Below are positions 4,280 through 23,341 of a DNA stretch of 64,000 nucleotides, piece by piece; position 1 is the first letter of the stretch, and each line of letters opens with the position of its first letter. The position numbers and the translations under genes were made by a program. This DNA comes from Planotetraspora silvatica (lineage in GTDB: Bacteria; Actinomycetota; Actinomycetes; Streptosporangiales; Streptosporangiaceae), in NCBI RefSeq assembly GCF_016863315.1, contig NZ_BOOQ01000028.1:1-64000 (forward strand), in the 5' to 3' direction. Below the pieces are notes generated by a model. It did no database searches and was not told where the DNA came from. It saw only the letters and a program-made list of their open reading frames with translations.

Positions 4280-4352
4280 CACTTAACCCTATTCCCCGAA
4301 TGTGACAACCGGATAGGGATCACCTGGTAATCGCCGAGCCTGACCTTGGTGG

Positions 4353-5141
4353 TTACTCGGCCGAGCCGGTGTCGATGTCTCCGTCCGGAGCGGTCGGAGG
4401 CTCCGGCAGCGAGACGTCTTCGGCGGCAGGCTTATCCGGTGGTGTCTCGGACTTGGCCGTCTCGAGCAGTTTCTCGAGGCGGGGACCGGCGAGGCGCAGG
4501 AACTTGCGGTGCTCGCGGCCGCGGTCGAGGACCGCCACCTCGAGCTGGGTGGTGGGAGGGCGCTCGCCTCCCGGCTCGGTCAGGGCGACCAGGGCGGCCT
4601 CGAGCGCCTCCGGCAGCGGCAGGTTGTCCCTGTAGCGCTCCTTGAGGCGGCCCGCGACGGCCTCGGCCTGCCCGCCGATGACGGCCATGCCCTGCTCGTC
4701 GAACACCGACCCGTCGAAGGTCAGCCGGTAGATCTGGTCATCGGCCTGGGATTCGCCGACCTCCGCGACGACGATCTCCACCTCCAGGGACTTGATCGAC
4801 TCGGTGAAGATCATGCCGAGCTGCTGGGCGTACAGGTTGGCGAGACCGCGGCCGGTGACGTCGTTGCGGTTGAAGGTGTAGCCGTTGATGTCCGCGTAGC
4901 GGATGCCGGCCAGGCGGAGCGACTCGAACTCGTTGTACCGCCCGACCGCGGCGAAGCCGATCCGGTCGTAGATTTCACTGATCTTGTGGAGAGCCTTGGA
5001 CGGGTTGGGCGCCACGAACAGGATGCCGTCGGCATACTGCATGACGACCACGCTGCGGCCTCGCGCGATGCCCTTTCGCGCATACTCCGCCCTGTCCCGC
5101 ATGATCTGCTCGGGTGAGGCATATCCAAAGGGCATGGACAC
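4353..5141 (-). CDS. prcA: 20S proteasome alpha subunit
   Basis: PrcA forms the outer gate rings of the 20S core particle and docks the Arc ATPase. The N-terminal gating region ([20 protein letters not shown]) and the [10 protein letters not shown] helix are typical. [20 protein letters not shown] and [16 protein letters not shown] confirm the family. The C-terminus is a long acidic, Pro-rich tail. The GTG start at 5141 has AGAGGA 9 bases upstream; ATG two codons later is an alternative. Only 22 bp separate it from prcB, so the two subunits are made from one message, which suits their 1:1 use. Confidence 0.97.
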
Positions 5142-5163: not shown

Positions 5164-6000
5164 TTAGCGCAGCGGGGCGATCGGTCCGTCGGGGGCTTCC
5201 ATCCGTACGGCGAGCACGGCCTGGACGAGCTCCGCGACCTCGTCGTCGGGCAGCCGGCGGAAGCCGTCCGCGGTGATCACGGCGATCATCGGCCAGATCT
5301 TCCGCGTCACGTCGGGCCCGCCGGTGGCGGAGTCGTCGTCGGCCGCGTCGTACAACGCGTTGAGGCACGCCATGACGGTGTCCTCGGCTGAGGCGTTCTC
5401 GCGGTACAGCTTCTTCAGCGAACCGCGCGCGAAGATCGAGCCCGAGCCGATCGAATGGTAGTTCCGCTGCTCGTACGGCCCGCCGCCCACGTCGTAGCCG
5501 AAGATCCGCCCGCCGTCGACGGCCGGGTCGTACGCCGCGAACAGCGGCACGACCACGAGGCCCTGCATCGCCATGGCGAGGTTGCCGCGGATCATCGTCG
5601 CCAGCCGGTTAGCCTTGCCCTCGGTGGAAAGCGAACGGCCTTCCGTCTTCTCGTAGTGCTCGAGCTCCACGCGGTAGAGCCGGGCCATCTCGATGCCCGT
5701 GCTCGCGGTGCCCGCGATGCCCATGCAGGAGTAGTCGTCGGTGCGGAAGACCTTCTCGATGTCCCGCTGGGAGATGATGTTGCCCGAGGTGGCGCGGCGG
5801 TCGCCGGCCATCACCACTCCCCCGGCACAGGTCGCCGCGACGATCGTGGTCGCGTGGGGGATCTGCTCACCGACCGGCACGGCCGGCGCCTGTGCCCGGG
5901 ACGGCAGCAGATCCGGCGCGTACGCGCCGAGAAACTCGGTGAAAGACGAGGACCCCGTGTATGTGAAGAGGTTGTTCATCCCGGCCTGCTGAGATGCCAC
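5164..6000 (-). CDS. prcB: 20S proteasome beta subunit (proteolytic)
   Basis: PrcB is the N-terminal-nucleophile protease subunit of the 20S core. A 50-residue propeptide is followed by TTIVAAT, so T51 becomes the catalytic Thr1. D67 (GDRRAT) and K83 (DIEKVF) sit at mature positions 17 and 33, as in the family. The propeptide ends His-Ala, where mycobacterial PrcB ends His-Gly. [15 protein letters not shown] and the [16 protein letters not shown] motif are conserved. The GTG start at 6000 is supported by GGAGG 7 bases upstream. It is the first gene of prcB-prcA-pafA. Unusually, pup is not immediately upstream but about 9.8 kb away, beyond a divergent sugar operon. Confidence 0.97.
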
Positions 6001-6246: not shown

Positions 6247-7614
6247 ATGAGACCTGTACTCGCGGCGGTGGCGGGAGCCGTACTGGTCCTCGCGGCCTGC
6301 GGAACGGGAAGCGAATCCTCGGACGGCAGTGTCACCCTCATCATCACGTCGAACGCGATCTCCGGCGGAAAGAACGCCGAGACGGCCGACTGGACGACCC
6401 GGTGGGTCATCCCCGAGTTCGAGAAGGAGCAGAAGGCGAAGGGCCGCCAGGTCCACGTCCTGTTCCAGCCGAGCGGGGTCGACGACGAGCAGTACAAGAC
6501 GAAGATCGCCCTCGACCTCAAGTCGCACGCCGGGGCCGACGTGATCGACGTCGACGGCATCTGGGTGGGCGAGTTCGCCCAGGCCGGCTACATCAAGCCG
6601 CTGTCCGAGGTCGCCGGCCCCGAGGTCGACTCCTGGGAGGGCTGGAGCCAGATCCCGAAGGCCGTACAGGGCCTGGGGATCTTCGAGGACAAGAAGTACG
6701 GCCTGCCCCAGGGCACCGACGGCCGCGTCCTGTACTTCAACAAGGACCTGTTCAAGAAGGCCGGCCTGCCGGCCGACTGGCAGCCCAAGAGCTGGCAGGA
6801 GATCCTCGACGCCGGCAACGCCCTGAAGGCCGCCGGGGTGCCGGTGCCGATCCAGCTCAACGCGGGCACCGCGATGGGTGAGGCGACGACCATGCAGGGC
6901 GCGCTGCCGCTCCTCGCCGGCGCGGGAGCGCAGATCTGGGCCGACGGCAAGTGGACGGGCGGCTCCCAGGCGCTGAAGGATGTGCTGGGCTTCTACCACC
7001 AGATCTACACGACCGGGCTCGGGGATCCGAAGCTGCAGCAGGAGGCGCAGGGCAGGGACAAGTCGTTCGCTCAGTTCGCCGAGGGCAAGATCGGCATCCT
7101 GGCGGAGGGCGACTACTTCTGGCGGGCGGTCGTCGAGCCCAAGGCCGGCGTCGCCCCGATGCAGAACAGGGACGCCGCCGTCGGGTACGCCCTCATCCCC
7201 TCCGAGCGCCCCGGCTCGGGCATCCGCGGGCAGGACTTCGTCAGCATGTCGGGCGGCGCCGTACGGGTCCTGAACCCGAACTCGAAGAACCCGAAGCTGG
7301 CCTGGGAGCTGCTGTCGTTCATGCACTCGGCCAAGGCCACCACGTCGCAGCTCGCGGGCGCGGCCAGGATCACCTCGCGCACGGACGTGAACGACGAGGT
7401 GCTCGGGGTCGATCCGATGCTGAAGTTCGTGTCGGACGAGGTGCTGCCGATCACGGCCTACCGTCCGCCGCTGGCCGTGTATCCGGAGGTGTCGGTCGCG
7501 CTGCAGGAGGCCACCGCCGCCGTCGTGTCGGGCAAGACGGTCGACGAGGCGGCCGCCGCTTACCAGCAGAAGGTGGAATCCCTGGTCGGCGGCGCCGCCA
7601 ATGTCACAAGCTGA
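6247..7614 (+). CDS. Sugar ABC transporter substrate-binding lipoprotein
   Basis: This is the extracellular ligand-binding component of a carbohydrate (CUT1-type) importer. The lipoprotein signal MRPVLAAVAGAVLVLAAC puts the anchoring Cys at residue 18. The body is typical of family 1 solute-binding proteins: VIDVDGIWVGEFAQ, then YGLPQGTDGRVLYFNKDLFKKAG, FAEGKIGILAEGDYFWR and, near the C-terminus, PPLAVYPEVSVALQEA. GGAGG sits 5 bases before ATG 6247. The stop overlaps the first permease gene by 14 bp. The mannosidase at the operon's end suggests a mannose-containing ligand, which is inference. Confidence 0.92.
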   Translation: MRPVLAAVAGAVLVLAACGTGSESSDGSVTLIITSNAISGGKNAETADWTTRWVIPEFEKEQKAKGRQVHVLFQPSGVDDEQYKTKIALDLKSHAGADVIDVDGIWVGEFAQAGYIKPLSEVAGPEVDSWEGWSQIPKAVQGLGIFEDKKYGLPQGTDGRVLYFNKDLFKKAGLPADWQPKSWQEILDAGNALKAAGVPVPIQLNAGTAMGEATTMQGALPLLAGAGAQIWADGKWTGGSQALKDVLGFYHQIYTTGLGDPKLQQEAQGRDKSFAQFAEGKIGILAEGDYFWRAVVEPKAGVAPMQNRDAAVGYALIPSERPGSGIRGQDFVSMSGGAVRVLNPNSKNPKLAWELLSFMHSAKATTSQLAGAARITSRTDVNDEVLGVDPMLKFVSDEVLPITAYRPPLAVYPEVSVALQEATAAVVSGKTVDEAAAAYQQKVESLVGGAANVTS

Positions 7615-8491
7615 CCCATCGGGCCTGGGACGCGCACGAGCCGTCGGGTTCGTGCTCCCAGGCCTGGTGCTGATCGGGATCTTCCTGATCTTCCCGGCGC
7701 TCTGGACCATCTATCTCGGCCTGACCGACTACCGGCTGACCGGCCTCGCCGCGGCGAATCCGCAGGTCGTCGGACTCGACAACTACACCACGGCGCTGGG
7801 GGACGACCGGTTCCGCAACTCGCTGTGGCTGACCGTGCAGTATGTGCTCGGCTCGGCGGTGGTGGGCCAGGCCGCGCTCGGGTTCGCGATCGCGTGGATG
7901 TTGCGCAACCGGCCCGGGCCGGTCAAGCGCGTCACCGAGGGCCTCGTGCTGCTGGCCTGGATCCTGCCGTCGTCGGTGGTCGCGTTCCTCTGGATCGCGC
8001 TGCTGGACCGCGACGAGGGCACGCTGAACGCGCTGCTGCACACGCCGGGGTTCGCCTGGCTGCTCGACTACCCCATGTCGTCGATCATCGTGTTCAACAT
8101 CTGGCGGGGCACGGCCTTCTCGATGATGTTGTACGGCGCGGCGCTGGAGAACGTGCCGCCGTCCCATCTGGAGACGGCCAGGCTCGCGGGCGCGTCGACC
8201 TTCCAGCAGCTCAGAGACGTCGTCTTCCCGAGGATCAAGGGCCACGTGCTGACCAACCTGCTGCTGATCAGCCTGTGGACCTTCAACGACTTCACCTCGT
8301 TCCAGCTCACGGCGGGCGGGCCCGAGGGCCGTTCGGAGATCCTCCCCGTGTACATCTACAACGTCGCGCTCAGCGGCGGCCAACTGGGCTTCGGCGCGGC
8401 GATCTCGTTCCTCGTCCTGCTGATCAACCTCGTCTTCGCCTTCATCTACCTGCGCCTGCTGCGCGGCCGCAGGAAGGTGGTCGTCCCATGA
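7601..8491 (+). CDS. Sugar ABC transporter permease 1 (MalF type)
   Basis: This is an inner-membrane permease of 296 residues with about six membrane segments and the EAA loop (ARLAGASTFQQLRDVVFP, ~residues 198-215) that contacts the ATPase. The short soluble N-terminus and FVLPGLVLIGIFLIFPALWT are typical of the UgpA/MalF group. It overlaps the end of the binding-protein gene by 14 bp and has no clear ribosome binding site, so it is probably translationally coupled. Confidence 0.92.
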   Translation: MSQADPSGLGRARAVGFVLPGLVLIGIFLIFPALWTIYLGLTDYRLTGLAAANPQVVGLDNYTTALGDDRFRNSLWLTVQYVLGSAVVGQAALGFAIAWMLRNRPGPVKRVTEGLVLLAWILPSSVVAFLWIALLDRDEGTLNALLHTPGFAWLLDYPMSSIIVFNIWRGTAFSMMLYGAALENVPPSHLETARLAGASTFQQLRDVVFPRIKGHVLTNLLLISLWTFNDFTSFQLTAGGPEGRSEILPVYIYNVALSGGQLGFGAAISFLVLLINLVFAFIYLRLLRGRRKVVVP

Positions 8492-8610
8492 CCCGCGAGG
8501 GGCGCGGCGGTGCCTGGACTGAGGAGAGCGCGGGAGCGAAGCGACCGAGGCGCGACGAGGGAAGGCATCGCCGCAAAGGAGCCCCGAGCCGTCGTGCCGG
8601 AGGCATGACC
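8492..8610 (+). other. Spacer with GC-rich repeat-like element between permease genes
   Basis: The other joints in this transporter operon overlap or nearly touch, but here ~120 bp intervene. The stretch could be read as an N-terminal extension of permease 2 from an ATG at 8488, but that peptide is charged and unlike a permease N-terminus. It contains gcgcgggagcgaagcgaccg (8529-8548), similar to an element at 62511-62530. I read it as an inserted short repeat. Confidence 0.4.
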
Positions 8611-9429
8611 ATGACACGCCACGCGCTCGCAACGATCGGACGGGCCACGTTCTTCGCGGTCGTGCTGGGGTTCTTCTCCCTGCCGCTGCTCTGGCTCGCC
8701 TCCGCGCCATTCGACGCGCACCCGTCGATCACGACGTCGCTGCCGGAGTTCACGTTCGGCAACTTCCGGTCGCTGCTCGACAACCCGTATGTCATGAGCT
8801 CGCTGCGCAACTCGCTCCTGCAGGCGGCCGGCAGCGCGGCGCTCGTGGTGGTCCTGGCGGCCCTGGCGGCGTACGCGCTCTCCCGGGTGCGGGTGCCCGG
8901 CAGGGACGCGCTGTTGTACGTGTTGCTGCTCCTGTCCTCCGTGGTGACGGGGACCGCGGCGATGGTGCCGCTGTTCGAGCTGGCCACGCGGCTGAACCTG
9001 ATCGACACCCACCTGGGGGTGATCCTCACCCTGTCGGGCGGCCTGCTCCCGGCCGCGATCTTCATTCTCAAGGACTTCATGGACGGCACGCCCACGTCGT
9101 ACGAGGAGTCGGCCCGGGTGTTCGGGGCGTCGCCGCTGCAGATCCTGCGGCACATCGTGATCCCGCTGGTGCGGCCCGGCCTGGCCACGATCGCGGTGTG
9201 GGCGGTCGCCAACGTGTGGGGCAGCTTCCTGCAGCCGTTCATCCTGCTCCGCGATCCCGACAAGTCACCCGGCGCGGTGATCCTCTACACGCTCTACACC
9301 GAGGGCGGGGCGCCGCGTCTCGACCTGATCTCGACGTTCTCGCTGCTCTACTCGCTTCCGGTGGTCGTGATGTACGTGTTCGTCAGCCGCAGGTACGGCT
9401 TCCGCTTCCACGGAGGGATCAAGAGGTGA
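8611..9429 (+). CDS. Sugar ABC transporter permease 2 (MalG type)
   Basis: This is the second inner-membrane permease, 272 residues with six predicted membrane segments. The EAA loop is SYEESARVFGASPLQILRHI (~residues 166-185). The C-terminus FVSRRYGFRFHGGIKR is typical of MalG/UgpE. I chose ATG 8611 because GGAGG (8599-8603) lies 7 bases upstream. An ATG at 8605 is too close, and one at 8488 would add an unlikely extension. The stop overlaps the GTG of the ATPase gene. Confidence 0.9.
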   Translation: MTRHALATIGRATFFAVVLGFFSLPLLWLASAPFDAHPSITTSLPEFTFGNFRSLLDNPYVMSSLRNSLLQAAGSAALVVVLAALAAYALSRVRVPGRDALLYVLLLLSSVVTGTAAMVPLFELATRLNLIDTHLGVILTLSGGLLPAAIFILKDFMDGTPTSYEESARVFGASPLQILRHIVIPLVRPGLATIAVWAVANVWGSFLQPFILLRDPDKSPGAVILYTLYTEGGAPRLDLISTFSLLYSLPVVVMYVFVSRRYGFRFHGGIKR

Positions 9430-10487
9430 TCTCGCTCAGCGGTCTGACCAAGGAGTTCCCCGGAGGTGTCCGGGCGATCGACTCCCTCGATCTCGAGATC
9501 CGCGACGGCGAGTTCTTCGCCCTGCTCGGCCCCTCGGGGTGCGGGAAGACGACGTTGTTGCGGACCATCGCCGGCCTGGAAACCCCGACATCAGGAAATG
9601 TCGGGATCGGGGGGACCGACGTGACCGGGTTGCCCCCCGGACGGCGCGACGTCGCGATGGTCTTCCAGGACTACGCGCTGTTCCCCCACATGGACGTCAC
9701 GACCAACATCGCCTATCCCCTGCGGATCAAGAAGGTCTCCCGGGCGAGGCGGGAGGCCAAGGCGGCCGAGACCGCCTCCCGTCTCAGCCTCTCCGAACTG
9801 CTGGCGCGCAGGCCCGCACAGTTGTCCGGCGGCCAGCAGCAGCGGGTCGCCCTGGCCAGGGCCATCGCCAGCCGCCCCCAGGTGTTCCTGTTCGACGAGC
9901 CGCTGTCGAACCTCGACGCCCGCCTGCGCCTGGAGGCGCGGACGTTCCTCAAGCGCCTCCAGCGTGAGCTCGCGGTGACCACCGTCTTCGTGACGCACGA
10001 CCAGGGAGAGGCGCTCGCGCTCGCCGATCGGATCGCCGTCATGAACGCCGGGCGGATCACGCAGGTCGGCACGCCGTCCGAGGTCTTCCACCGGCCCGCC
10101 GACCCCTTCGTGGCCGGTTTCATCGGCTCCACCCCCATGAACCTGCTGCCCGCCTCGGCCGAAGGGGGCGAGTTGCACGTCGCCGGCGCCGTGCTCCCCC
10201 TCCCTCGCGACATCCCGGACGGTCCTCTCGTGTACGGCCTACGGCCGGAATATGCGGATCTATCACAATCCGCACCGGTCGGGAGGCGGGACGCCTTCTC
10301 GGGGAAGGTAGCCGTCGTGGAGAATCTCGGCACCGCCCACCTCGTCACGCTCGAGTCGGGGGACCTGCTGATCCAGGTCGTCGTACCGGAGGGAGACGAG
10401 CCCGCCGTCGGCGCGTCCGCCTGGGCCGCCCCCCGTCCCGGCCGCGCCCTCCTCTACCGCGACGACCGACTCCTCACGGGGGCCTGA
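9426..10487 (+). CDS. Sugar ABC transporter ATPase (MalK/UgpC type)
   Basis: This is the ATP-hydrolysing subunit of the importer, 353 residues. Walker A GPSGCGKTT, Q-loop VFQDYALFPH, signature LSGGQQQR, Walker B VFLFDEPLSNLDARLR and the H-loop VFVTHDQGEA are all intact. The C-terminal ~110 residues form the TOBE/OB regulatory region of MalK-like proteins, so sugar-specific rather than peptide transport is expected. It starts with GTG 9426, overlapping the permease stop by 4 bp. Many actinomycete sugar importers lack their own ATPase and share MsiK; this one has its own. Confidence 0.93.
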   Translation: MISLSGLTKEFPGGVRAIDSLDLEIRDGEFFALLGPSGCGKTTLLRTIAGLETPTSGNVGIGGTDVTGLPPGRRDVAMVFQDYALFPHMDVTTNIAYPLRIKKVSRARREAKAAETASRLSLSELLARRPAQLSGGQQQRVALARAIASRPQVFLFDEPLSNLDARLRLEARTFLKRLQRELAVTTVFVTHDQGEALALADRIAVMNAGRITQVGTPSEVFHRPADPFVAGFIGSTPMNLLPASAEGGELHVAGAVLPLPRDIPDGPLVYGLRPEYADLSQSAPVGRRDAFSGKVAVVENLGTAHLVTLESGDLLIQVVVPEGDEPAVGASAWAAPRPGRALLYRDDRLLTGA

Positions 10488-10489
10488 GG

Positions 10490-11743
10490 ATGGCCTGGAT
10501 CACGGGAGCGCCCGGAGAGACGATCCGGGGGACGTGGACGCTCGACGACCGGATCTCCGGCCCGGTCAAGGAGGTGGCGTTCGAGATCCCCGCCGGCACC
10601 GCCGCCCTCACGGTACGGCTCGGCCATGACAGCTCGGCGGGGGTGCTCGACCTCGGCTGCTCGGGCCCGGACGGCTTCCGCGGCTGGTCGGGCGGGGCCC
10701 GCACCGAGTACACGATCGGCCCCCTGTGGGCGACCCCCGGCTACCTTCCCGGCGACGTCGAGCCCGGCGTCTGGCGGGTGCTGATCGGCCTTCATCGCAT
10801 CCCCCTCGAGGGCATGCCGTACGAGATCACGGTGATCGCCCACCCGCGGCCGCCGGCCGCTCCGCGCGACCATCCGAGCCGGTGCAAGCGAGCACCCCGT
10901 GACCCGCACCGGCAGCCCGCCGCCACGCGCCGGGGCCTGCCCTCGCTCGACGGGTTCCACTGGCTGGCCGGGGACCTCCACGCCCACACGCATCACTCGG
11001 ACGGCTCGCTCAGCGTCTACGAACTTGGGTGCTTCGCGGCCGACCGCGGCCTCGACTTCCTCGCCGTCACCGACCACAACACGGTCAGCCACCACGCCGA
11101 CCTGGCCTCCGGGTCGGCGCTCGCCGGCATCCTGCTCGTTCCCGGGCAGGAGGTCACCACCGATCTCGGCCACGCCAACGCGCTGGGCGACATCGGCTGG
11201 GTCGACTTCCGGCGCCCGCCCGACGAGTGGGCCCGTGCCGTGGAGGACCGGGGCGGAGTGTTGTCGGTCAACCATCCCCTGGCGGCCGACTGCGCCTGGC
11301 GGCACCCGTTCGGCAACCGGCCGAGGACGGCCGAGCTGTGGCACTGGAGCTGGTGGGACCGGACATGGGGCGCGCCGCTCGCCTGGGGGCAGGCCTGGAC
11401 GGACGACCTCGTCGTCGTGGGAGGCGGGGACTTCCACCGGCCGGAGGACGGGCACCCGCCGGGGGCTCCCACGACGTGGGTGCTCGCCGACTCGGCGTGC
11501 GACGGCGCGGACAAGGTCGTGCGGGCGGTGGCCGACGGCCGCACCGCGGTGTCGGCGTCGCCCGACGGGCCGCTGCTGCTCCGGCACGGGGAGGAGTTCC
11601 TCGTGGCCGGCGGGGACGGGCTCGTGTTGTGGGGTCCGGAGATGCGGCGGGTCATCCGCGGGGATCGCGTGCTGGTGCCGGCCCGGCCGGGCGTCCATCG
11701 GCTCGAGACGCCGGTGAACGAGGTGATGGCCCTGTGCACCTGA
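10490..11743 (+). CDS. PHP-domain metallohydrolase (CehA/McbA-like)
   Basis: This is a predicted metal-dependent phosphoesterase of 417 residues. An N-terminal beta-rich domain (~1-130) precedes a PHP domain with the expected ligand motifs: GDLHAHTHHSDG (~163-174), VTDHNTVSHH, LGHANALG, VNHPLAADC and GGGDFHRPEDG. No signal peptide is visible, so it should act in the cytoplasm. It begins 2 bp after the ATPase stop. PHP enzymes of the CehA/McbA group often accompany sugar ABC operons, but their substrates are mostly unknown. I infer that it processes a phosphorylated or ester-linked form of the imported glycan. Confidence 0.82.
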   Translation: MAWITGAPGETIRGTWTLDDRISGPVKEVAFEIPAGTAALTVRLGHDSSAGVLDLGCSGPDGFRGWSGGARTEYTIGPLWATPGYLPGDVEPGVWRVLIGLHRIPLEGMPYEITVIAHPRPPAAPRDHPSRCKRAPRDPHRQPAATRRGLPSLDGFHWLAGDLHAHTHHSDGSLSVYELGCFAADRGLDFLAVTDHNTVSHHADLASGSALAGILLVPGQEVTTDLGHANALGDIGWVDFRRPPDEWARAVEDRGGVLSVNHPLAADCAWRHPFGNRPRTAELWHWSWWDRTWGAPLAWGQAWTDDLVVVGGGDFHRPEDGHPPGAPTTWVLADSACDGADKVVRAVADGRTAVSASPDGPLLLRHGEEFLVAGGDGLVLWGPEMRRVIRGDRVLVPARPGVHRLETPVNEVMALCT

Positions 11744-11851
11744 CCCCCGCCGCACCTGGCACGGCCTTTGCGGGAAGGCAGGCGTGATCACACCGGCATC
11801 GTGGGAAGGTCACGTGGCAGCCGGGGAAGCCCGCGTGACGGTGGGGGGACG

Positions 11852-13009
11852 GTGACGGGCGTGGACGTGGTGAAGGTGGCCGTCGTGGGCCTGGGCGTGG
11901 CCGGTCAGGTCGTCTACCTGCCGCTGCTGGCGCGGCGTCGCGACATCTTCCGAGTCTCCGCCGTCTGCGATCTCGACCGCGAGCACGCGGAGAACGTGGG
12001 GCGCGACATCGGCGCCACGGCGTTCGACGACCCGATCGCCATGATGGACAGGGGCGGATTCGACGCGCTGATCGTCTTGACCGGCGGGTCCCACGGGCCG
12101 CTCGTGAAGGCGGCCCTCGACCGCGGCTACTGGGTGCTCTCCGAGAAGCCGCTGGCCTACAGCCTGGCCGAGCTGAAGGGCATCCCCGGGGACGCCCGGC
12201 TCATGGTGGCCTACATGAAGCAGTACGACCCGGCGTCGCAACGCATGCTGGACGCGCTGCACGAGGTGGGCGGACCGGCCGCGATCCGCCATTTCGACGT
12301 CACCGTGCTGCACCCGTCGGACGAGTCGCAACTGCTGTTCGCCAGGGCACGCGTGACCAGGCCCTCGCCCGACCGGCTGGCACCGTACGCGGAGGCCGAC
12401 GAGCGGGCGCTCACCGCCGCGGTCGGGGCGTCGTCGGAGCGGCTGCGGCGCCTGTACGCCCGGGTCGTGCTGGGCAGCATCTGCCACGACCTGTCCCTCA
12501 TGCGGATGTTCACCGGCCCGCCCGACACGGTGGACCACGTGTCGGTGTGGCCCGTCGACGCCTTCCCGCCGTCCGTCGAGGTGAGCGGGACGCTGCGCGG
12601 CAGCGGTTCCGGCAGGTACGGCATCCGCTGGCACCATCTGCCCAGTTATCCCGCGTACCACGAGACCGTGCTGGTGCACCACGAGCACGGCTCGCTGGAG
12701 CTGGAGTTCCCCTCCCCCTACCTCCTGAACGCCCCGACCACCCTCACCTGCCTGTCGCGGGTCGGCACGACCGAGCGGCGGACGGTCTACCGTGACGTGG
12801 CGGAGGCGTTCGAACGGCAACTCGTCGCCTTCCATCGGTTCGTCACCCAGGAGGAACGCCCTCTGACCGGGCTCGAGGGCGCCGTGGAGGACATCGTCAC
12901 CGCCCAGCGGATCATCCGCCGCTACGCCGAATGGGCCGGCATCCCCGTCAGCGGCGAATGCGTCGAGAGCGAGCGCACGCGTGAACCTGTTACCGACCCC
13001 CTCGGATGA
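11852..13009 (+). CDS. Gfo/Idh/MocA family oxidoreductase
   Basis: This is a predicted NAD(P)-dependent sugar oxidoreductase of 385 residues. The Rossmann motif VAVVGLGVAGQVVYLPLL is at the N-terminus. The family EKP motif occurs as LSEKPLAYSL, and CHDLSLMRMF supplies the usual active-site His/Asp region. The substrate is unknown. I chose GTG 11852 because a G-rich ribosome site lies just upstream; GTG 11861 is possible, and the longer ATG form at 11768 adds an Arg/Gly-rich stretch that looks non-coding. Its end overlaps the mannosidase start by 29 bp, so the two are probably coupled. Confidence 0.87.
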   Translation: MTGVDVVKVAVVGLGVAGQVVYLPLLARRRDIFRVSAVCDLDREHAENVGRDIGATAFDDPIAMMDRGGFDALIVLTGGSHGPLVKAALDRGYWVLSEKPLAYSLAELKGIPGDARLMVAYMKQYDPASQRMLDALHEVGGPAAIRHFDVTVLHPSDESQLLFARARVTRPSPDRLAPYAEADERALTAAVGASSERLRRLYARVVLGSICHDLSLMRMFTGPPDTVDHVSVWPVDAFPPSVEVSGTLRGSGSGRYGIRWHHLPSYPAYHETVLVHHEHGSLELEFPSPYLLNAPTTLTCLSRVGTTERRTVYRDVAEAFERQLVAFHRFVTQEERPLTGLEGAVEDIVTAQRIIRRYAEWAGIPVSGECVESERTREPVTDPLG

Positions 13010-15728
13010 TCGTCCAGAGATCGTCGTCGTCCCCCACACCCACTGGGACCGCGAGTGGTACCTCCCGTTCCAGCGGTTCCGGATGGGCCTGGTCGGGATG
13101 CTCGACGACGTCCTGTCCGCGATGGACGACGACCCCGCCTACCGGTTCACCATGGACGGCCAGCTCGCCGCCGTGGAGGACTACCTGGAGATCCGGCCCT
13201 CCCGGCGTGACGACATCGTCCGCTTCGTCACCGAGGGCCGGTTCGCCGTCGGCCCGTGGCTGATCCTCGCCGACGAGTTCCTCTGCTCCGGCGAGACCCT
13301 GATCCGCAACCTCGAGTACGGCATGCGCGGCTCGGCCGTCCTCGGCGGGGCGATGCGCGTCGGCTACCTTCCCGACCAGTTCGGGCACTGCGCCCAGATG
13401 CCGCAGATCCTGGCGTCCGCGGGACTGCGCCACGCCTGCCTGTGGCGCGGGGTCCCGGCGCACGTCGACCGGGACACGTTCGTCTGGACGGGCGCCGACG
13501 GCACCTCGGTGACGACCAGATACCTGCCCGGAGGGTACGGCAACGCCGTCGCGCTCCTCAGCGGCCCGCCCGACGGCCTGCCCGACCGCGTCGCCGCCTT
13601 CGCCTCCGCGATGGACGGCTGGCGCTCGGACGCCCTGCTGCTCGCGATGTACGGGGCCGACCACTCGGCCCCGTCCCGTGAGATCACCGCCGCAGGGCTG
13701 CGCGTCGCGACCCTCGGCGAGTTCATGGACACGGCCGCAAGCGCCGCCAAGGGCGCCGCCGACGGGGACGGCGGCCTTCCGCGGGTCGCCGGCGAGCTGA
13801 GGTCGCACGCGCGGGCCAACATCCTGCCCGGCGTGATCTCCGCTCGCGTGGGGCTGAAGCAGGCCATGGCCCGGGCCGAGCGGGTCATCACGCGATACGC
13901 CGAGCCGCTGTCCGCCCTGTGGCTCACCGACCGCTCGGCCTCCGCGCGCCTGCTCGATCTCGCCTGGCGGCGGGTCATCGCGTGCAGCGGGCACGACTCG
14001 GTGACCGGCTGCGGCGCCGACGAGACGGCGCAGCAGGTGGCCGCCAGGATCGCCGAGGCCGGGCAGATCGGCCAGGCCGTCGTCGACCTGGTCGGATCGT
14101 CCCTCGCCGCGTCGGCGGGCAAGGACGCGATCGTGGTCGTCAACCCCTCCCCGTTCGAGCGGTCCGGCCTCGTGCTCGCCGACCTCCCCGAGCGCAGCGC
14201 CACTCTCGTGGGCCCGGACGGCCGGGCCGTGCCCGTCCAGCGCCTGGAGCACGCCCCCACGCTCCTGGACGAGACCGTCATGGACGACCTCGGACGGTTG
14301 CTCGGCCGCGTGCACGAGCGGGAGCTGTTCGGCCACGAGATCGTCTCCTGGGCCGTGGAGCGGCCTCGCGAGGACGAGGGCGGCGTGTTCACCGTGACGG
14401 TCAGCCGCCACGCCTCGGGCGCGTACGCCTACGAGGACCTCCGCCAGGCGATCCTCGGCGCGGGGCCGGGGCCCTGGATCGTCAGGACCCTGGCGGAACC
14501 GGTCGTCACCGTCGCCGCCCATGTCACCGTGCCGCCTCTCGGCCGTTCGGTGCTGACCGCGCGCGCTCCGGTCTCCGGCGGCCCCCGGGCGGGCCTTCCC
14601 ACCGGAGCGATCCTCGAGGAGGAGGCGGACGGGGCCACGCTGGACAACGGGCTGCTGCGCGTCCGGGTCGCCGCCGACGGCACGCTGTCCCTGCGGAGCG
14701 CGGAGGGAGTCGAGGTCCACGGGGTCGGGCGCGTCGCCCACGGCGGTGACGTGGGCGACACCTACAACCACGCCCCACCGCCACGGGACCACGTGAGCGA
14801 CGTCCCCGCTCACGTGTCGGTCGAGGAGGTGCACACCGGGCCGCTCGTCTCGGTGCTCGACGTCGTCCGGGTCTACGAGTGGCCGGCGGACGAGCACGCG
14901 GCCTCCCAGGTGACCACCGACGTCCGGACCAGGGTCGAGTTGCGGGCGGGCGAGCCGTACGTGCGGTGTGAGGTGTCCATGGACGTCGTCTGCCGGGACC
15001 ACCGGATCAGGTGGCACGCCCCGCTGCCGTCCGGGGCGGCCGAGTCGTTCGCCGAGGGGCAGCTCGCCGTGGTCCGGCGTGGCCTGACGGCCGAGGGAGG
15101 CGGCGGAGAGGAGCCCGTGCCCACCTTCCCCGCGGAGTCGTTCGTCGCCGCGGGCGGGCTCGCGGTGTTGCTCGACCACGTCAGCGAATACGAGCTCGTC
15201 GGGGCGGAGGTCCCCCAGGTCGCGAGCGAACTGGCGCTCACGCTGGTCAGGTCGGTGGGCCTGCTGTCCGCCAATCGCAATTCCCACCGGGACGAGCCCG
15301 CCGGGCCGCAGGTGGCGACTCCCGCCGCCCAGTGTCCGGGGCCGTTCTCGACGCGCTTCGCCGTCCTCCCGTATGCGGGGACCTGGCACGAAGCGGAGTT
15401 GCCGCGTCTCGCGGAGGAGTTCCGGCACGAACTGCTCGCCGTCCCCGGCTCCGGGCCCTCAGTGGCCGCGTCCACGCGGCGGGGACTCATGATCAGCGGC
15501 GACGGGGTGATGATGGCGGCGTTGCGGGAGAGGGACGGATGGCTGGAGATCCGCCTGGTGGCCGAGCATCCGGTGGCCACCGCGGCTGTGATCCACGGGG
15601 GGTTCACCGGCGCGCGTCTCGCCGACGCGCTCGGTTCCCCCGCCGCCCCGCTGGATGTCACAGAAGGATCGGTACGGCTCCCGCTCCGTCCCTTCGAGAT
15701 AGCGACCGTTCAGATGTCGTGGTTGTAG
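12981..15728 (+). CDS. GH38 family alpha-mannosidase
   Basis: This is a predicted retaining alpha-mannosidase of 915 residues, cytoplasmic because no signal peptide is seen. The N-terminal GH38 domain begins PHTHWDREWYLPF (zinc ligands H21 and D23). D132 in GYLPDQFGHCAQMPQIL is the expected nucleophile and zinc ligand. CSGHDSVTGCGADE supplies the later zinc-site His. The middle helical and large C-terminal beta domains are present, so the length is normal for the bacterial MngB-like branch. The true substrate may be a mannosyl conjugate such as mannosylglycerate rather than a free oligosaccharide. It is the last gene of the sugar operon, converging on pup 49 bp away. Confidence 0.93.
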   Translation: MNLLPTPSDDRPEIVVVPHTHWDREWYLPFQRFRMGLVGMLDDVLSAMDDDPAYRFTMDGQLAAVEDYLEIRPSRRDDIVRFVTEGRFAVGPWLILADEFLCSGETLIRNLEYGMRGSAVLGGAMRVGYLPDQFGHCAQMPQILASAGLRHACLWRGVPAHVDRDTFVWTGADGTSVTTRYLPGGYGNAVALLSGPPDGLPDRVAAFASAMDGWRSDALLLAMYGADHSAPSREITAAGLRVATLGEFMDTAASAAKGAADGDGGLPRVAGELRSHARANILPGVISARVGLKQAMARAERVITRYAEPLSALWLTDRSASARLLDLAWRRVIACSGHDSVTGCGADETAQQVAARIAEAGQIGQAVVDLVGSSLAASAGKDAIVVVNPSPFERSGLVLADLPERSATLVGPDGRAVPVQRLEHAPTLLDETVMDDLGRLLGRVHERELFGHEIVSWAVERPREDEGGVFTVTVSRHASGAYAYEDLRQAILGAGPGPWIVRTLAEPVVTVAAHVTVPPLGRSVLTARAPVSGGPRAGLPTGAILEEEADGATLDNGLLRVRVAADGTLSLRSAEGVEVHGVGRVAHGGDVGDTYNHAPPPRDHVSDVPAHVSVEEVHTGPLVSVLDVVRVYEWPADEHAASQVTTDVRTRVELRAGEPYVRCEVSMDVVCRDHRIRWHAPLPSGAAESFAEGQLAVVRRGLTAEGGGGEEPVPTFPAESFVAAGGLAVLLDHVSEYELVGAEVPQVASELALTLVRSVGLLSANRNSHRDEPAGPQVATPAAQCPGPFSTRFAVLPYAGTWHEAELPRLAEEFRHELLAVPGSGPSVAASTRRGLMISGDGVMMAALRERDGWLEIRLVAEHPVATAAVIHGGFTGARLADALGSPAAPLDVTEGSVRLPLRPFEIATVQMSWL

Positions 15729-15777: not shown

Positions 15778-15987
15778 CTACTGCCCGCCCTTCTGGACGT
15801 AGCTCCGGACGAACTCCTCCGCGTTCTCCTCGAGAACCTCGTCGATCTCGTCGAGGATCGCGTCGACGTCGTCGGTGAGCTTCTCCTGACGCTCCTGGAC
15901 GTCCGGGGCCGCCTGCGCCTCGACCTCTTCGACGTCGTTCTCCTGGCGGCCGGTCTGCTTCTGACCGCCGGTGTCCTTGGTCGCCAT
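15778..15987 (-). CDS. pup: Prokaryotic ubiquitin-like protein Pup
   Basis: Pup is the small, largely disordered protein tag that directs substrates to the proteasome. The 69-residue product is acidic. Its central helix-forming region (VDAILDEIDEVLEENAEEFV) is the part that binds the coiled coil of Arc/Mpa. It ends YVQKGGQ, so the terminal Gln must be deamidated by Dop before PafA can use it. GGAGG lies 8 bases before ATG 15987, and a promoter is predicted upstream. Pup usually sits between dop and prcB. Here it is followed by the convergent GH38 gene and separated from dop by the kinase-like, cobB and phosphatase genes, so it probably has its own transcript. Confidence 0.98.
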   Translation of the reverse strand: MATKDTGGQKQTGRQENDVEEVEAQAAPDVQERQEKLTDDVDAILDEIDEVLEENAEEFVRSYVQKGGQ

Positions 15988-16050: not shown

Positions 16051-16388
16051 TTCGCGCGGAAGCCCCCACGATCTTTCTCCCCGGCCCGGGGACGTCCCGC
16101 CAGACAACCCTCTGCGTACCCCGAGCGCAACCCCCTGACCGGATAGCAGAGCTATCCGATTCTCCGGCCGGACCGGCCCCGGCCACCCGGTCCGGACAAG
16201 CTCGTTTACCCGAGGGTGCTGGCTGGAGTAAGCCCGAGAGCAGGCACAATGATCTCGGCACCGGCCTGCTGTAGATCGGATCGTTATGCCCGCCACACTG
16301 CCGTCCGGCATCCGGCGGCAGCCGTCCGGACCACAATGTGCAGAGATCTCGGGCCCACGGGGGCGGCTGGAGCGCGGACGGGGAACTG
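16051..16388. other. Intergenic region, pup / kinase-like gene, with small hairpin
   Basis: This is the divergent gap between the pup promoter and the pseudokinase gene. It holds a perfect 7-bp hairpin, CGGATAG/CTATCCG with a 5-base loop (16140-16158), that could be an operator half-site pair. No convincing -35/-10 pair for the rightward gene was found. Confidence 0.4.
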
Positions 16389-17357
16389 ATGGGAACAGAT
16401 CGGGCAGGAGACCTGCTCGGGGATCGGTACAGACTTGTGTCGCCCTTCCACCGGGAGGACGGCGGCGTCATGTGGCGGGCTCACGATTCACGGCTCAAGC
16501 GTGACGTGGTGGTCAGGGAAGTACGCCCGCCCGCCCATCTCGACGGATCCGATCTCCCCTCCGCGCGGCTCCACGCGCTCGGTGAGGCGCGCTCGGCGGC
16601 CCGGCTGGACCATCCGGCGATCGTCACCGTGCACGACCTTCTGGAGGACCAGGGCCGGCTCTGGATGGTGACCGAACTCCTGCGCGGCCTCACGCTGACG
16701 GAGACCGTGCGGCATCTGGGCAGGCTCCCGGTCCACTGGGCCGCCTGGGTCGGCTTCCAGCTCCTGGCCGGGATCCGGTACGCCCACGCGGCCGAGGTCC
16801 TGCACGACGGCATCAGGCCGTCCAGGGTCCTGCTGACCGAGGAACGCGTGGTGCTGACGGGCTTCGGGTTCGCCACGCCGGAGAACATGCCGGCGCCGCC
16901 CCCGTCGCCGTACGCCGCGCCTGAGCGGCTGCTCGGCCGCCGGCCGGACCAGGCGTCCGATCTGTGGTCGTTCGCGGCGACGCTGTACTACGGCGTGGAG
17001 GGCAGGCCTCCCTACCCGGCCGACGAGGTCCGCTCCGGCCGGACAGGCGAGCCTGAGGCCGTCACGGCGGCCTCAGGCGCATACGGCGACGCCGGGAGCG
17101 CTCCCGAGGACGCGTCCGCGGACCGGCCCGGAGGCTCGGTCCTGACCGCCGACGATCGCGGGGAGCCGGACCCGCCCCGCAAGGCGGGACCGCTGCGCCC
17201 GGTCCTCGAGGGCCTGCTCCGGGTGGACCCGGAGAGGCGGCTGACGGCCGAGGCGGCCACGGCCCTCCTCGTGGAGCTCCTGAAGAAGGAGGGCATCGCG
17301 GCCACGTTGCCCGGGCGCAGGACCGAGTCGCCCCTGCCGCCCTCCTTTACAAAGTAG
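16389..17357 (+). CDS. Serine/threonine kinase-fold protein, predicted pseudokinase
   Basis: The 322-residue product has the overall fold of a bacterial Ser/Thr kinase: GDRYRLVSPF start, C-helix Glu (E67 in GEARSAARLDHPAIV), hinge VTELLRG, APE motif (SPYAAPERLLG) and SDLWSFAATLYYGVEG. The catalytic residues are replaced. The beta-3 lysine is R43 (DVVVREV). The HRD loop reads HDGIRPSR, so the catalytic Asp is G141 and the Asn is R146. DFG reads GFG, with the Mg-binding Asp as G158. The Gly-rich loop is also degenerate. No membrane segment is present, and a disordered acidic insert spans ~205-260. It probably binds a partner or nucleotide without phosphorylating. It is transcribed away from pup, and its stop is 2 bp from that of cobB. 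The start at 16389 is a best guess. Confidence 0.85.
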   Translation: MGTDRAGDLLGDRYRLVSPFHREDGGVMWRAHDSRLKRDVVVREVRPPAHLDGSDLPSARLHALGEARSAARLDHPAIVTVHDLLEDQGRLWMVTELLRGLTLTETVRHLGRLPVHWAAWVGFQLLAGIRYAHAAEVLHDGIRPSRVLLTEERVVLTGFGFATPENMPAPPPSPYAAPERLLGRRPDQASDLWSFAATLYYGVEGRPPYPADEVRSGRTGEPEAVTAASGAYGDAGSAPEDASADRPGGSVLTADDRGEPDPPRKAGPLRPVLEGLLRVDPERRLTAEAATALLVELLKKEGIAATLPGRRTESPLPPSFTK

Positions 17358-19683: not shown

Positions 19684-21201
19684 TCAGCTCTCGCCGGTCA
19701 GAGCCGCCACCAGGTCGGCGGCGGTCCTGCACCGGTCGAGGAGGTCGCCCACGTGCGCCTTGGTGCCACGGAGGGGCTCCAAGGTGGGCACCCGTTGCAG
19801 CGACTCCCTGCCGGGGATGTCGAAGATCACCGAGTCCCACGACGCGGCGGCCACCGACTCGCTGTACTGGCGCAGGCAACGGCCGCGGAAATAGGCGCGG
19901 GTGTCGTTCGGCGGCATCTCGATGGCCCGCTCGACCTCGTCCTCGGTCACCAGGCGCTGGATGCGGCCCCGGGCCACGAGCCGGTTGTAGAGGCCGCGCT
20001 CGGGCCGGATGTCGGAGTACTGCAGATCGACGAGCTGGAGCCGCGGGTGGCTCCAGGGCAGGTTGTCGCGGGTGCGGTAGCCCTCGAGAAGCTCCAGCTT
20101 GGCGACCCAGTCGAGCTCCCTGGACAGCTGCATCGGGTCCTCGGCGAGCCGGGTCAGCACCGACTCCCAGCGGTTCAGCACGTCCTTGGTCATCTCGTCG
20201 ACGCCGGAGCCGTAGCGGTCCTCGACGTACTTGCGGGCCTGCTCGAGATACTCCATCTGGAGTTGGACGGCCGTCATCTTGCGGCCGTTGCGCAGCGCGA
20301 TCTCGTATTTGCAGGTCGGGTCGTGGGACACGGCCCGCAGCGCCGCGACCGGCGACTCCGCCGACAGGTCGTTGGTGAGGAAGCCGTCCTCGATCATGGC
20401 CAGGACGAGCGCCGTGGTCCCCAGCTTCAAATATGTCGAGATCTCCGACATGTTGGCATCGCCGATGATGACGTGGAGGCGGCGGTACTTCTCGGGGTCA
20501 GCGTGCGGTTCGTCACGCGTGTTGATGATCGGCCGCTTGAGCGTGGTCTCGAGGCCGACCTCCACTTCGAAGAAGTCGGCCCGCTGGCTGATCTGGAAAC
20601 CCTCGCCACGCGAATCCTGCCCGATCCCGACCTTGCCCGCGCCGCAGACGACCTGGCGGGACACGAAGAACGGCGTGAGATGGCGGACGATGTCAGCGAA
20701 CGGGGTGGCCCGGCGCATGAGGTAGTTCTCGTGGCAGCCGTAGGAGGCGCCCTTGGCGTCGGTGTTGTTCTTGTACAGCTGGATGGGGGCGTTGCCCGGC
20801 ATGCCCGAGGCGCGGACGGCGGCGTCGTGCATGACCCGCTCCCCCGCCTTGTCCCAGATGACCGCGGCCCGGGGGTTGGTGCACTCCGGCGTGGAGTACT
20901 CCGGGTGGGCATGGTCGACGTAGAGCCGCGCGCCGTTGGTGAGGATGACGTTGGCCAGGCCGAGGTCCTCATCGGTCAGCTGGCTCTGGTCGGCCACCTC
21001 ACGGGCCAGGTCGAACCCACGGGCGTCACGGAGCGGGTTCTCCTCCTCGAAGTCCCATCGAGCGCGCCGGGCCCGAGCGGCCGACGCCGCCAGGTACGCG
21101 TTGACGACCTGCGAGGAGGTCACCATCGCGTTGGCCCCTGGCTGGCCGGGTACGGCGATGCCGTACTCGGTCTCGATGCCCATCACCCGCCGAACCGTCA
21201 T
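19684..21201 (-). CDS. dop: Pup deamidase / depupylase Dop
   Basis: Dop deamidates the terminal Gln of Pup and can remove Pup from substrates. The 505 residues show the PafA-like fold: MGIETEYG (E10 and E12 bind Mg/ATP), [16 protein letters not shown] (D96 is the expected catalytic Asp), [19 protein letters not shown] and NTRDEPHAD. The Dop-specific loop (~residues 66-82, [16 protein letters not shown]) separates it from PafA. I prefer ATG 21201 ([10 protein letters not shown]), the usual actinobacterial N-terminus; a GTG two codons earlier is possible and the ribosome site is weak. Downstream come the phosphatase-like gene and cobB rather than pup. A 370-bp gap separates it from arc. Confidence 0.96.
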
Positions 21202-21474
21202 GCGCACCCCGCCTGTTTCAGGCTGTCGTTCCGCCGTTATATCCCCGAGCCTAGCCCCTTCTCTATGCCCGGCTGCCAGACAGTTACGGCACCGATGCCT
21301 AGGGAGTTTGTACCGGAACGGGCGACTGGAGCGGGGAGACCGACTTCCGCGTGGCCGTACGCAACGGGTGGGGGCGATCGCCCGGACCCGCCCGGCGGAC
21401 CGCTGACCAGCGCGGGAGGAGGCCGGCGCCGGCGCCCCTCAGCCTGGCCTCGGCGCCGGGTGCGGACACGGAAA
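21202..21474. other. Intergenic region upstream of dop
   Basis: This 273-bp part of the arc-dop gap holds no gene. A leftward TAGGCT (complement of 21250-21255) could be a -10 for dop, but the -35 is poor. Confidence 0.3.
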
Positions 21475-21577: not shown

Positions 21578-23341
21578 TCAGAGGTACTGACCCGTGTTGG
21601 CCACCGTGTCGATCGACCGGCCGGCCTCCGTGCCCTGCTTGCCCTGGACGAGCGTGCGGATGTAGACGATCCGCTCGCCCTTCTTGCCGGAGATGCGGGC
21701 CCAGTCGTCGGGGTTGGTGGTGTTGGGCAGGTCCTCGTTCTCGGAGAACTCGTCCACGCAGGCGGCCAGCAGATGCGCGATCCGCAGACCCTTCTGCCCG
21801 GTCTCGAGGAACTGCTTGATCGCCATCTTCTTGCCGCGGTCCACGATGTTCTGGATCATGGCTCCGGAGTTGAAGTCCTTGAAGTAGAGGACTTCCTTGT
21901 CGCCGTTGGCGTAGGTCACCTCGAGGAAGCGGTTCTCCTCGCTCTCGGTGTACATCCGCTCGACGACCCGCTGGATCATGCCCGCGATCGTGCCCTCACG
22001 GCTGTCGCCGTGCTCGGACAGGTCGTCGGCGTGGAGCGGGAGCTCGCTGATGATGTACTTCGAGAAGATGTCCTTGGCCGCCTCGGCGTCCGGCCGCTCG
22101 ATCTTGATCTTGACGTCCAGGCGGCCGGGCCGCAGGATCGCCGGGTCGATCATGTCCTCGCGGTTGGAGGCGCCGATGACGATGACGTTCTCCAGGCCCT
22201 CGACGCCGTCGATCTCCGACAGCAGCTGGGGGACGATGGTGTTCTCGACGTCGGAGGAGACGCCGGAGCCGCGGGTCCGGAAGATCGAGTCCATCTCGTC
22301 GAAGAACACGATCACCGGGGTGCCCTCGGATGCCTTCTCCCTGGCCCGCTGGAAGACCAGGCGGATGTGCCGCTCGGTCTCACCGACGTACTTGTTGAGA
22401 AGCTCGGGACCCTTGATGTTGAGGAAGAAGCTCTTGCCGGACTGGCCGGTCTTCTCGGCGACCTGCTTGGCGAGGGAGTTGGCGACGGCCTTGGCGATCA
22501 GGGTCTTGCCGCACCCGGGCGGGCCGTACAGCAGCACGCCCTTGGGCGGGCGGAGCTTGTGCTCCCTGAACAGGTCGGCGTGCAGGTAGGGCAGCTCGAT
22601 CGCGTCCCTGATCTGCTCGATCTGCCTGCTGAGGCCGCCGATCTCCTCGTAGGAGATGTCGGGGACCTCTTCGAGGACGAGCTCCTCGACCTCGGACTTG
22701 GGGATCCGCTCGTAGACGTAGTTGGAACGGGGCTCGAGCAGGAGCGAGTCTCCGGCGCGGATCGGCTGGTCGAGAAGGGACTCGGCCAGCTTGACCACGC
22801 GCTCCTCGTCCGCGTGCGAGATGACGAGCGCGCGCTGCCCGTCCTCCAGGAGTTCCTTCAGCATGACGATCTCGCCGACGTCCTCGAAGCCGAGGGCCTC
22901 GACGACGTTGAGCGCCTCGTTGAGCATGACCTCCTGGCCACGCTTGAGGGACTCGACCTCGACGGCGGGGCTGACGTTGACCCGCAGCTTCCGGCCGCCC
23001 GTGAACACCTCGATCGTGCCGTCTTCCCTGGCCTCGAGGAACACTCCGAAACCGGACGGCGGCTGGGCCAGCCGGTCGACCTCCTCCTTGAGGGCGACGA
23101 TCTGATCCCTGGCCTCCTTGAGGGTGGAGACCAGCCGTTCGTTCTGACTCGTGAGGGCCGCCACCTGGGCCTGTGCCTCATGGAGACGCTCTTCGATGAC
23201 CCTGGCCTGCCGGGGTGACTCGGCCAGTTTCCGGCGCAACGCGGTGATCTCCTCCTGCAGGAAGGAGACCTGTGTTGTGAGATCCGCGACCTCCCGTTCG
23301 CGCTGCGCGGCTCGAGCCTCAGCGTCGTCGCGAGCTGCCAC
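21578..23341 (-). CDS. arc: Proteasomal AAA+ ATPase Arc/Mpa
   Basis: Arc is the ring ATPase that recognises Pup, unfolds tagged proteins and feeds them into the 20S core. The 587 residues have an N-terminal coiled coil (~1-92) that binds Pup, tandem OB domains (~95-225) and one AAA domain with Walker A GPPGCGKT, Walker [11 protein letters not shown] and the arginine-finger region AILRPGRLD. It ends TGQYL, whose penultimate Tyr is the docking signal for the alpha ring. The GTG start is supported by a perfect AAGGAGGTGA upstream. It lies between trmI (204 bp) and dop, the usual order. Confidence 0.97.

Follow-up and report, generated by a model that had tools for sequence, protein, structure and literature searches.

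Few functions are known for bacterial pseudokinases. The main text of a review of such proteins (O'Boyle et al. 2025, PMC12599244) describes actinobacterial groups to which the gene reported here can be compared. In ActPs1, a clade related to Act1, the catalytic triad is substituted, the G-helix is absent in about 60% and many members carry a C-terminal PQQ-type domain. ActPs2 shows the beta-3 Lys changed to Arg, the HRD Asp changed to Asn, a DFG deletion in most members and two long insertions in about 90%, and ActPs3, which includes MviN, shows a deletion of the activation loop, complete motif loss and, in many members, a transmembrane region. According to the same main text, the pseudokinase domain of MviN from M. 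tuberculosis is thought to act by binding, through the recruitment of FhaA. The words Pup and proteasome do not occur in this main text, and the word "kinase" does not occur in the main text of a review on the Pup-proteasome system (PMC8223512). A full-text literature search over open-licence papers, covering titles and the beginnings of abstracts, returned no paper on a kinase at the pup locus.

The locus studied here lies in a window, i.e. the whole analysed stretch of 64,000 nucleotides from Planotetraspora silvatica. It carries the genes of the Pup-proteasome system and, divergent from pup, a gene with a kinase fold for which we coined the name psk (pup-linked pseudokinase):

2921-4282, - strand: pafA
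4353-5141, - strand: prcA
5317-5856, - strand: match of a second proteasome-subunit gene, presumably prcB
15778..15987, - strand: pup, divergent from psk
16389..17357, + strand: psk, 322 amino acids and a stop codon (ORF, Pfam and model)
19684..21207, - strand: dop, depupylase
21578-23341, - strand: proteasome ATPase gene mpa/ARC

Between the proteasome genes and pup, the + strand encodes an ABC transporter, an oxidoreductase of Gfo/Idh type and a relative of mannosylglycerate hydrolase, a glycosyl hydrolase, and this transport, oxidoreductase and glycosyl-hydrolase segment (7601-15728) separates the proteasome subunit genes from pup. In the pup-psk spacer, a consensus scan found no sigma-70 promoter and a comparison with Rfam found no structured RNA up to E 1.

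The open reading frame, the strand and the coordinates 16389-17357 (+) given by an earlier note on this DNA are correct, and so is its reading of the product as a kinase fold. The ATG at 16389 is the likely start; the longer frame from a GTG at 16338 was rejected, as indels put it out of frame in the relatives in the Planotetraspora alignment. The product matches Pkinase in Pfam with E 1.1e-22 and hits kinase families only, and the nearest solved sequences are those of M. tuberculosis PknA (E 9e-22). With 54 psk sequences as the input alignment, an AlphaFold model was built for the window psk, the only psk modelled (mean pLDDT 77, pTM 0.77), and it superposes on M. tuberculosis PknB (1mru_B) with Z 27.4 and 2.6 A over 250 residues. 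The profile match and the bilobal fold of the predicted structure thus indicate that the kinase fold is retained. The protein resembles PknA and PknB in fold and nearest solved sequences, and differs from them in that its catalytic residues are replaced, that it has no strongly hydrophobic stretch (top 19-mer score 1.06) and that no second Pfam domain was found.

The four substitutions that had been pointed out are all present, and their positions, together with one further feature of the C-lobe, are as follows:

16515..16517, + strand: codon 43, beta-3 Lys changed to Arg (R43); Lys in 71 of 73 orthologues
16803..16811, + strand: codons 139-141, HRD changed to HDG (H139-D140-G141), codons checked
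16824..16826, + strand: codon 146, catalytic-loop Asn changed to Arg (R146), codons checked
16860..16868, + strand: codons 158-160, DFG changed to GFG (G158-F159-G160), codons checked
17025..17138, + strand: residues 213-250, low-complexity and predicted disordered stretch in place of alpha-G (model and alignment)

The alpha-C Glu (E66), the APE Glu (E179) and the DxW Asp (D191, in DxWS) are kept, as had also been reported, and the glycine loop, on which the earlier note was silent, is likewise degraded. The residue labels K72 and D166 follow protein kinase A numbering. With the HRD Asp, the catalytic-loop Asn and the DFG Asp lost, canonical Mg-ATP phosphotransfer by the window psk is very unlikely, as judged from its sequence. 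The protein is also a pseudokinase in the sense of having lost at least one of the beta-3 Lys, the HRD Asp and the DFG Asp: three of these are lost in the window and in P. mira, two in P. phitsanulokensis and P. kaengkrachanensis, and one in P. thailandica. Between residues 205 and 266 the model contains no helix of at least 4 residues, only a 3-residue turn at 254-256, and among 55 distinct psk sequences P. mira alone shares the disordered insert of the window. The psk and Dop of the window are 95% and 99.8% identical to their counterparts in P. mira NBRC 15435. The loop from GFG to APE is shorter than in many orthologues, and the regions of HRD and DFG align without deletion.

Compared with the described groups, the psk of the window and of P. 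mira (2 of 55) resembles ActPs1 in that all three canonical catalytic residues are substituted, and the alpha-G helix is absent in the window model, where residues 213-250 are disordered. Unlike ActPs1, psk with its 322 residues has no C-terminal PQQ-type domain, and its full triad loss arose within one genus from kinases that hold the triad, a comparison with ActPs1 by description only. With ActPs2 it shares the Arg, whereas its HRD Asp is changed to Gly and its GFG is undeleted, so it does not fit that group. As an actinobacterial pseudokinase proposed to act by binding it is similar to MviN, but MviN spans the membrane and the activation loop of ActPs3 carries a deletion, and psk, a soluble single domain beside pup, does not fit there either.

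To describe the distribution of psk, we refer to 341 searched genomes of the same GTDB family, among which 73 contain the gene (18 of 68 genera), and to a sample of 150 genomes of the family, among which 47 contain it. In every one of the 73 orthologue genomes psk is divergent from pup, with its start 216-1849 bp away, so the place beside pup given by the earlier note holds for all of them. In contrast, cobB, the other neighbour it had named, comes after psk only in Planotetraspora and in part of the other genera. The constant neighbour of psk is therefore pup and not cobB, and the idea of cobB as a functional neighbour is weakened. The position of dop is also variable. In the 150-genome sample the median distance between dop and pup is 238 bp where psk is absent (94 of 96 genomes measured) and 3699 bp where it is present (43 of 47 measured), where three genomes with only psk2 (a second kinase, see below) are excluded from the psk-less group and 4 of the 150 have no pup match. 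Of the 94 measured psk-less genomes, 76 have dop and pup no more than 700 bp apart, and of the 43 measured psk genomes, 19 have dop at a distance of over 6 kb from pup, with psk still beside pup; 14 of the 73 psk genomes are represented by short loci in which dop is not always within view.

In a class-level sample of 296 genomes with at most 8 candidates scored per genome, scores of psk grade (>430 bits) were found in 10 genomes, all from the same GTDB family, and the best match from another family reached 295 bits. Among the 146 pup-matching genomes of the 150-genome sample, 96 contain neither psk nor known psk2. In the dop tree, which is mostly weakly supported, psk-less relatives are nested among psk-bearing genomes, and judged from this psk seems to be dispensable. 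No convincing kinase remnant was found at any of 11 psk-less loci examined (best E 0.069). In 16 of the 73 genomes a second kinase, psk2, with intact motifs stands in tandem between pup (or tm134, a membrane protein gene described below) and psk. An example is found at L034:442-1245; psk2 stands alone at loci L105-L107, and it occurs without psk in three genomes (G101, G123 and G005).

The catalytic state of psk is graded. In a quick tree of 74 kinases (restricted to rows that match with 120 bits or more and span 200 amino acids or more; three own-genome paralogue rows, one of them a fragment, were dropped), the 55 distinct psk sequences form one clade (SH-aLRT 99) and psk2 is its sister. The two thus share a locus and are sister clades, whereas psk2 has all catalytic residues intact (12 distinct sequences) and is without W117 and W120. 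Among the 55 psk sequences, one of which (L081) is left out of alignment A1, losses are seen at the beta-3 Lys in 2, the HRD Arg in 37, the HRD Asp in 11, the HRDxK Lys in 41, the Asn in 9 and the DFG Asp in 7, and no loss is seen at the alpha-C Glu, the HRD His, the DFG Phe, the APE Glu or the DxW Asp; the alpha-C Glu is present in all 73 genomes. The complete Lys-Asp-Asp triad is found in 42 of the 55 and therefore most of the psk family may still be active. All catalytic residues are intact in genus g31 only (5 of 55 sequences; 11 of 73 genomes).

Losses recur on the tree: Microtetraspora and its kin have HGA, genus g5 shows HES/EFG and HQA, genus g6 shows HRS or a lost Asn, a single g44 genome has GFG, and in g34 and g59 the Asn is changed to Thr. 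In Microbispora rosea the motif reads HGD. Within Planotetraspora, psk of P. thailandica reads HGD, Asn and EFV, and psk of P. phitsanulokensis and P. kaengkrachanensis reads HDG, Arg and GFG with the beta-3 Lys kept. The change of this Lys to Arg is limited to P. mira and the window (2 of 73), and three of the five Planotetraspora genomes retain the Lys. By parsimony on the tree, the glycine loop would have been lost first and the HRD Arg next, followed by the Asp, the Asn and the DFG Asp, and the beta-3 Lys would have gone last, in the window and P. mira. Two other atypical kinases were seen in passing: one in the same genome as the window (locus L008, G000:C3:26094-26774) with beta-3 Lys changed to Arg and HGD, and one in Actinomadura macrotermitis (L058), 39% identical, with an intact HRD and GFD for DFG, whose 20.6 kb locus contains no pup match.

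The replacement of every catalytic residue, put forward in the earlier note, is consequently no family trait: the states are graded and specific to lineages, the exact HDG/GFG state is limited to four of the five Planotetraspora genomes, and 11 of 73 genomes (g31) are intact. Such intact orthologues had been named as what would mark the window gene as a recent degenerate allele; they exist, and the recent allele nevertheless fails, as HDG/GFG is found in four Planotetraspora genomes, three of which are named species. An assembly error was rejected together with the recent allele, as the substitutions recur in the genomes of P. mira, P. phitsanulokensis and P. kaengkrachanensis. The sequences thus indicate that HDG/GFG is neither an ancient family trait nor a recent allele and that the losses are stepwise and occurred several times over.

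Some residues outside the catalytic set are characteristic of the family, including the following pair:

16737..16748, + strand: codons 117-120, W117 and W120, where alpha-E begins

A63, H109, W117 and W120 are invariant among the 55 distinct psk sequences and absent from all 12 psk2 and all 6 own-genome paralogue rows. Counted by genomes, all four are kept in 71 of 73, and the exceptions (G599 and G603) have Arg at 117 and 109. In the model the four residues fall within alpha-C, where alpha-D ends and where alpha-E begins. They are the best hint to a candidate binding surface.

To see how psk is constrained, dN/dS was calculated with a Nei-Gojobori script for 6 of the 10 Planotetraspora species pairs. 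The ratio is 0.25 between the window and P. mira, 0.29 between P. phitsanulokensis and P. kaengkrachanensis, 0.30-0.37 between those pairs and 0.32 between the window and P. thailandica; over the first 850 bases, the 6 pairs of the four HDG genomes give 0.27-0.39. In every pair tested omega is far under 1, and the excess of silent changes between the window and P. phitsanulokensis is significant (Fisher p 1.6e-8). For the neighbours, the values are 0.08-0.16 (cobB), 0.17-0.34 (glycosyl hydrolase and oxidoreductase), 0.26-0.36 (phosphatase) and less than 0.07 (dop and mpa). The psk frame is unbroken in all five Planotetraspora genomes, P. thailandica (dS 0.72) included, and the adjoining spacer carries several indels between these genomes. 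Median omega is 0.30 for Planotetraspora psk versus 0.18 for the intact psk of g31, 0.19 for Microbispora and for Microtetraspora psk, and 0.13 for psk2, based on 81 of 82 usable pairs inside the chosen dS range (the pair left out is from psk2, 14 of 15).

It follows from these sequence comparisons that psk in Planotetraspora is under purifying selection, and that the constraint is relaxed relative to the intact relatives but not gone. Given this constraint and the intact frame in all five genomes, psk is not a recent allele, nor is it a dead gene. The selective, non-random loss of catalysis claimed earlier is thus borne out in part: the intact frame in five genomes, the dN/dS of 0.25-0.39 and the constant position next to pup in 73 of 73 orthologues agree with it, while the glycine loop, alpha-G and the upstream tm134 are eroded too and the constraint is weaker.

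The gene tm134 encodes a 134-residue membrane protein without a named family, and it lies between pup and the kinase, on the strand of the kinase, in 37 of 73 genomes (e.g. L067:6397-6798, and likewise the loci of 36 other genomes). It has four predicted membrane helices and an invariant GHAHA, and 13 copies are 72-93% identical to the first. It is found with or without kinases, and in some psk-less genomes (e.g. G100, G141, G121, G051 and G068) it stands alone between dop and pup. No Pfam family is over the cut-off (best DUF7937, E 0.0047), no NCBIfam match was found up to E 1, and Rv1761c is a weak profile match (E 0.048). There is no significant match among solved structures: the best by Foldseek is styrene oxide isomerase (E 1.0), and the best VIA-align result (Z 8.6, 4.1 A over 128 residues) is in the chance-level range for helical proteins. 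The genome of the window has no tm134 copy at E 1e-6, and the four other Planotetraspora genomes have only a relative of 37-38% identity on a different contig. Upstream of psk, the window contains:

16240..16274, + strand: tm134 scar, the last codons over two frames with a conserved stop at the end
16273..16288, + strand: conserved block AGATCGGATCGTTATG, following the scar and upstream of the psk start

At 31 of the 55 distinct psk loci this block is located 105-123 bp 5' of the start codon (at most 3 mismatches), 25 of which are without full tm134, and it is missing from that position in the other 24; the best among the listed shuffles has 4 mismatches. It is possibly a promoter or regulatory site of psk.

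Loss of catalytic residues (among Lys, Asp, Asn and Asp) affects 17 of the 36 genomes without full tm134 versus 2 of the 37 with tm134 (Fisher p 4e-5), where genomes with a partial tm134 (G147 and G599) are scored as without, and the raw p over 55 sequences is 2e-4. These raw tests treat genomes as independent, whereas contrasts on the tree allow for shared ancestry. On 8 independent contrasts the link is not significant, with 3.2 going the same way, 1.0 the opposite way and 3.8 showing no difference. Contrary to a coupling, 19 genomes without full tm134 keep the residues, and the tm134-bearing G044 and G603 show losses. We do not claim a coupling, because it is lost on the independent contrasts both for the 55 sequences and for the 73 genomes, and the loss of tm134 as the trigger of catalytic loss is a lead. 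Genus g6 (L073, L083 and L148-L154) holds four combinations of tm134 and catalytic state by itself, with two contrary cases (G599 and G603).

Because its catalytic residues are gone yet selection persists, psk has probably been retained for a role other than phosphorylation. The explanation that we favour, by a narrow margin over its being wrong, is that psk is a maintained binding module, dead for phosphotransfer, which evolved from a kinase once encoded together with tm134. Sequence comparison shows that it belongs to a single clade of soluble, PknB-type kinase genes with a fixed place beside pup, some members of which retain every catalytic residue. The membrane protein encoded just upstream may have been a working partner of the ancestral kinase, and when tm134 was gone, catalysis would have become unneeded in several lineages with the binding role still needed. 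With less confidence, we suggest that psk acts by binding a partner, perhaps through H109, W117 and W120 of the C-lobe, as its active site drifts. Its partner may belong to the Pup-proteasome system, with Pup, Dop or the proteasome as candidates, which we infer from gene position only; the adaptor or sensor role suggested in the earlier note would be a candidate on the same ground.

The main rival is that the kinase became unneeded after the loss of tm134 and is slowly disappearing, with the residual constraint merely preventing harmful misfolding. The raised dN/dS relative to intact relatives (median omega 0.30 versus 0.18 in g31 and 0.13 in psk2), the degraded glycine loop, the alpha-G helix missing from the model, the low-complexity insert, the reduction of tm134 to a scar and the several relatives that are without psk and without a convincing remnant (11 of 11 loci) would all agree with such a decay. 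On the other hand, omega is well below 1 in all tested pairs, none of the five genomes has a broken frame, P. thailandica at dS 0.72 among them, and the non-catalytic residues A63, H109, W117 and W120 are invariant, so we regard decay as rather unlikely. Far less probable is that psk still binds nucleotide, with Arg43 in place of Lys and Asp140 shifted by one residue, and carries out weak phosphotransfer or another transfer. The beta-3 Lys in three of five Planotetraspora genomes with a conservative change in the other two, the alpha-C Glu in 73 of 73, and the precedents of SelO (AMPylation) and SidJ (glutamylation), which act with degraded motifs (main text of PMC12599244), speak for it, but four of the five Planotetraspora genomes lack the HRD Asp, the Asn and the DFG Asp, and the glycine loop is degraded.

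A further reading is compatible with all the others and concerns the partner: psk could be beside pup through a shared divergent promoter region, with a target unrelated to the Pup-proteasome system. We give this somewhat less than an even chance, as the proposed link is one of gene position, dop, cobB and the sugar-related genes vary around psk, and 96 of 146 pup-matching genomes have neither psk nor known psk2. Against it, the position is fixed in 73 of 73 genomes and 18 genera, and psk stays with pup where dop moves off. Extending the favoured binding module, one could imagine that a pup-linked signalling unit of tm134 and one or two kinases once governed the Pup-proteasome system of Streptosporangiaceae, and that after the membrane input was lost the kinase repeatedly became an adaptor without catalysis, serving Pup, Dop or the proteasome; we consider this broad version improbable.

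In conclusion, one orthologous locus beside pup spans the range from a kinase with all catalytic residues to a protein without the triad, with the loss of tm134 as a candidate trigger. If the signalling-unit reading were true, this would provide a natural series from active kinase to pseudokinase that is testable at a single locus, and if the partner is indeed Pup, Dop or the proteasome, psk would regulate the Pup-proteasome system from within that system's own locus.
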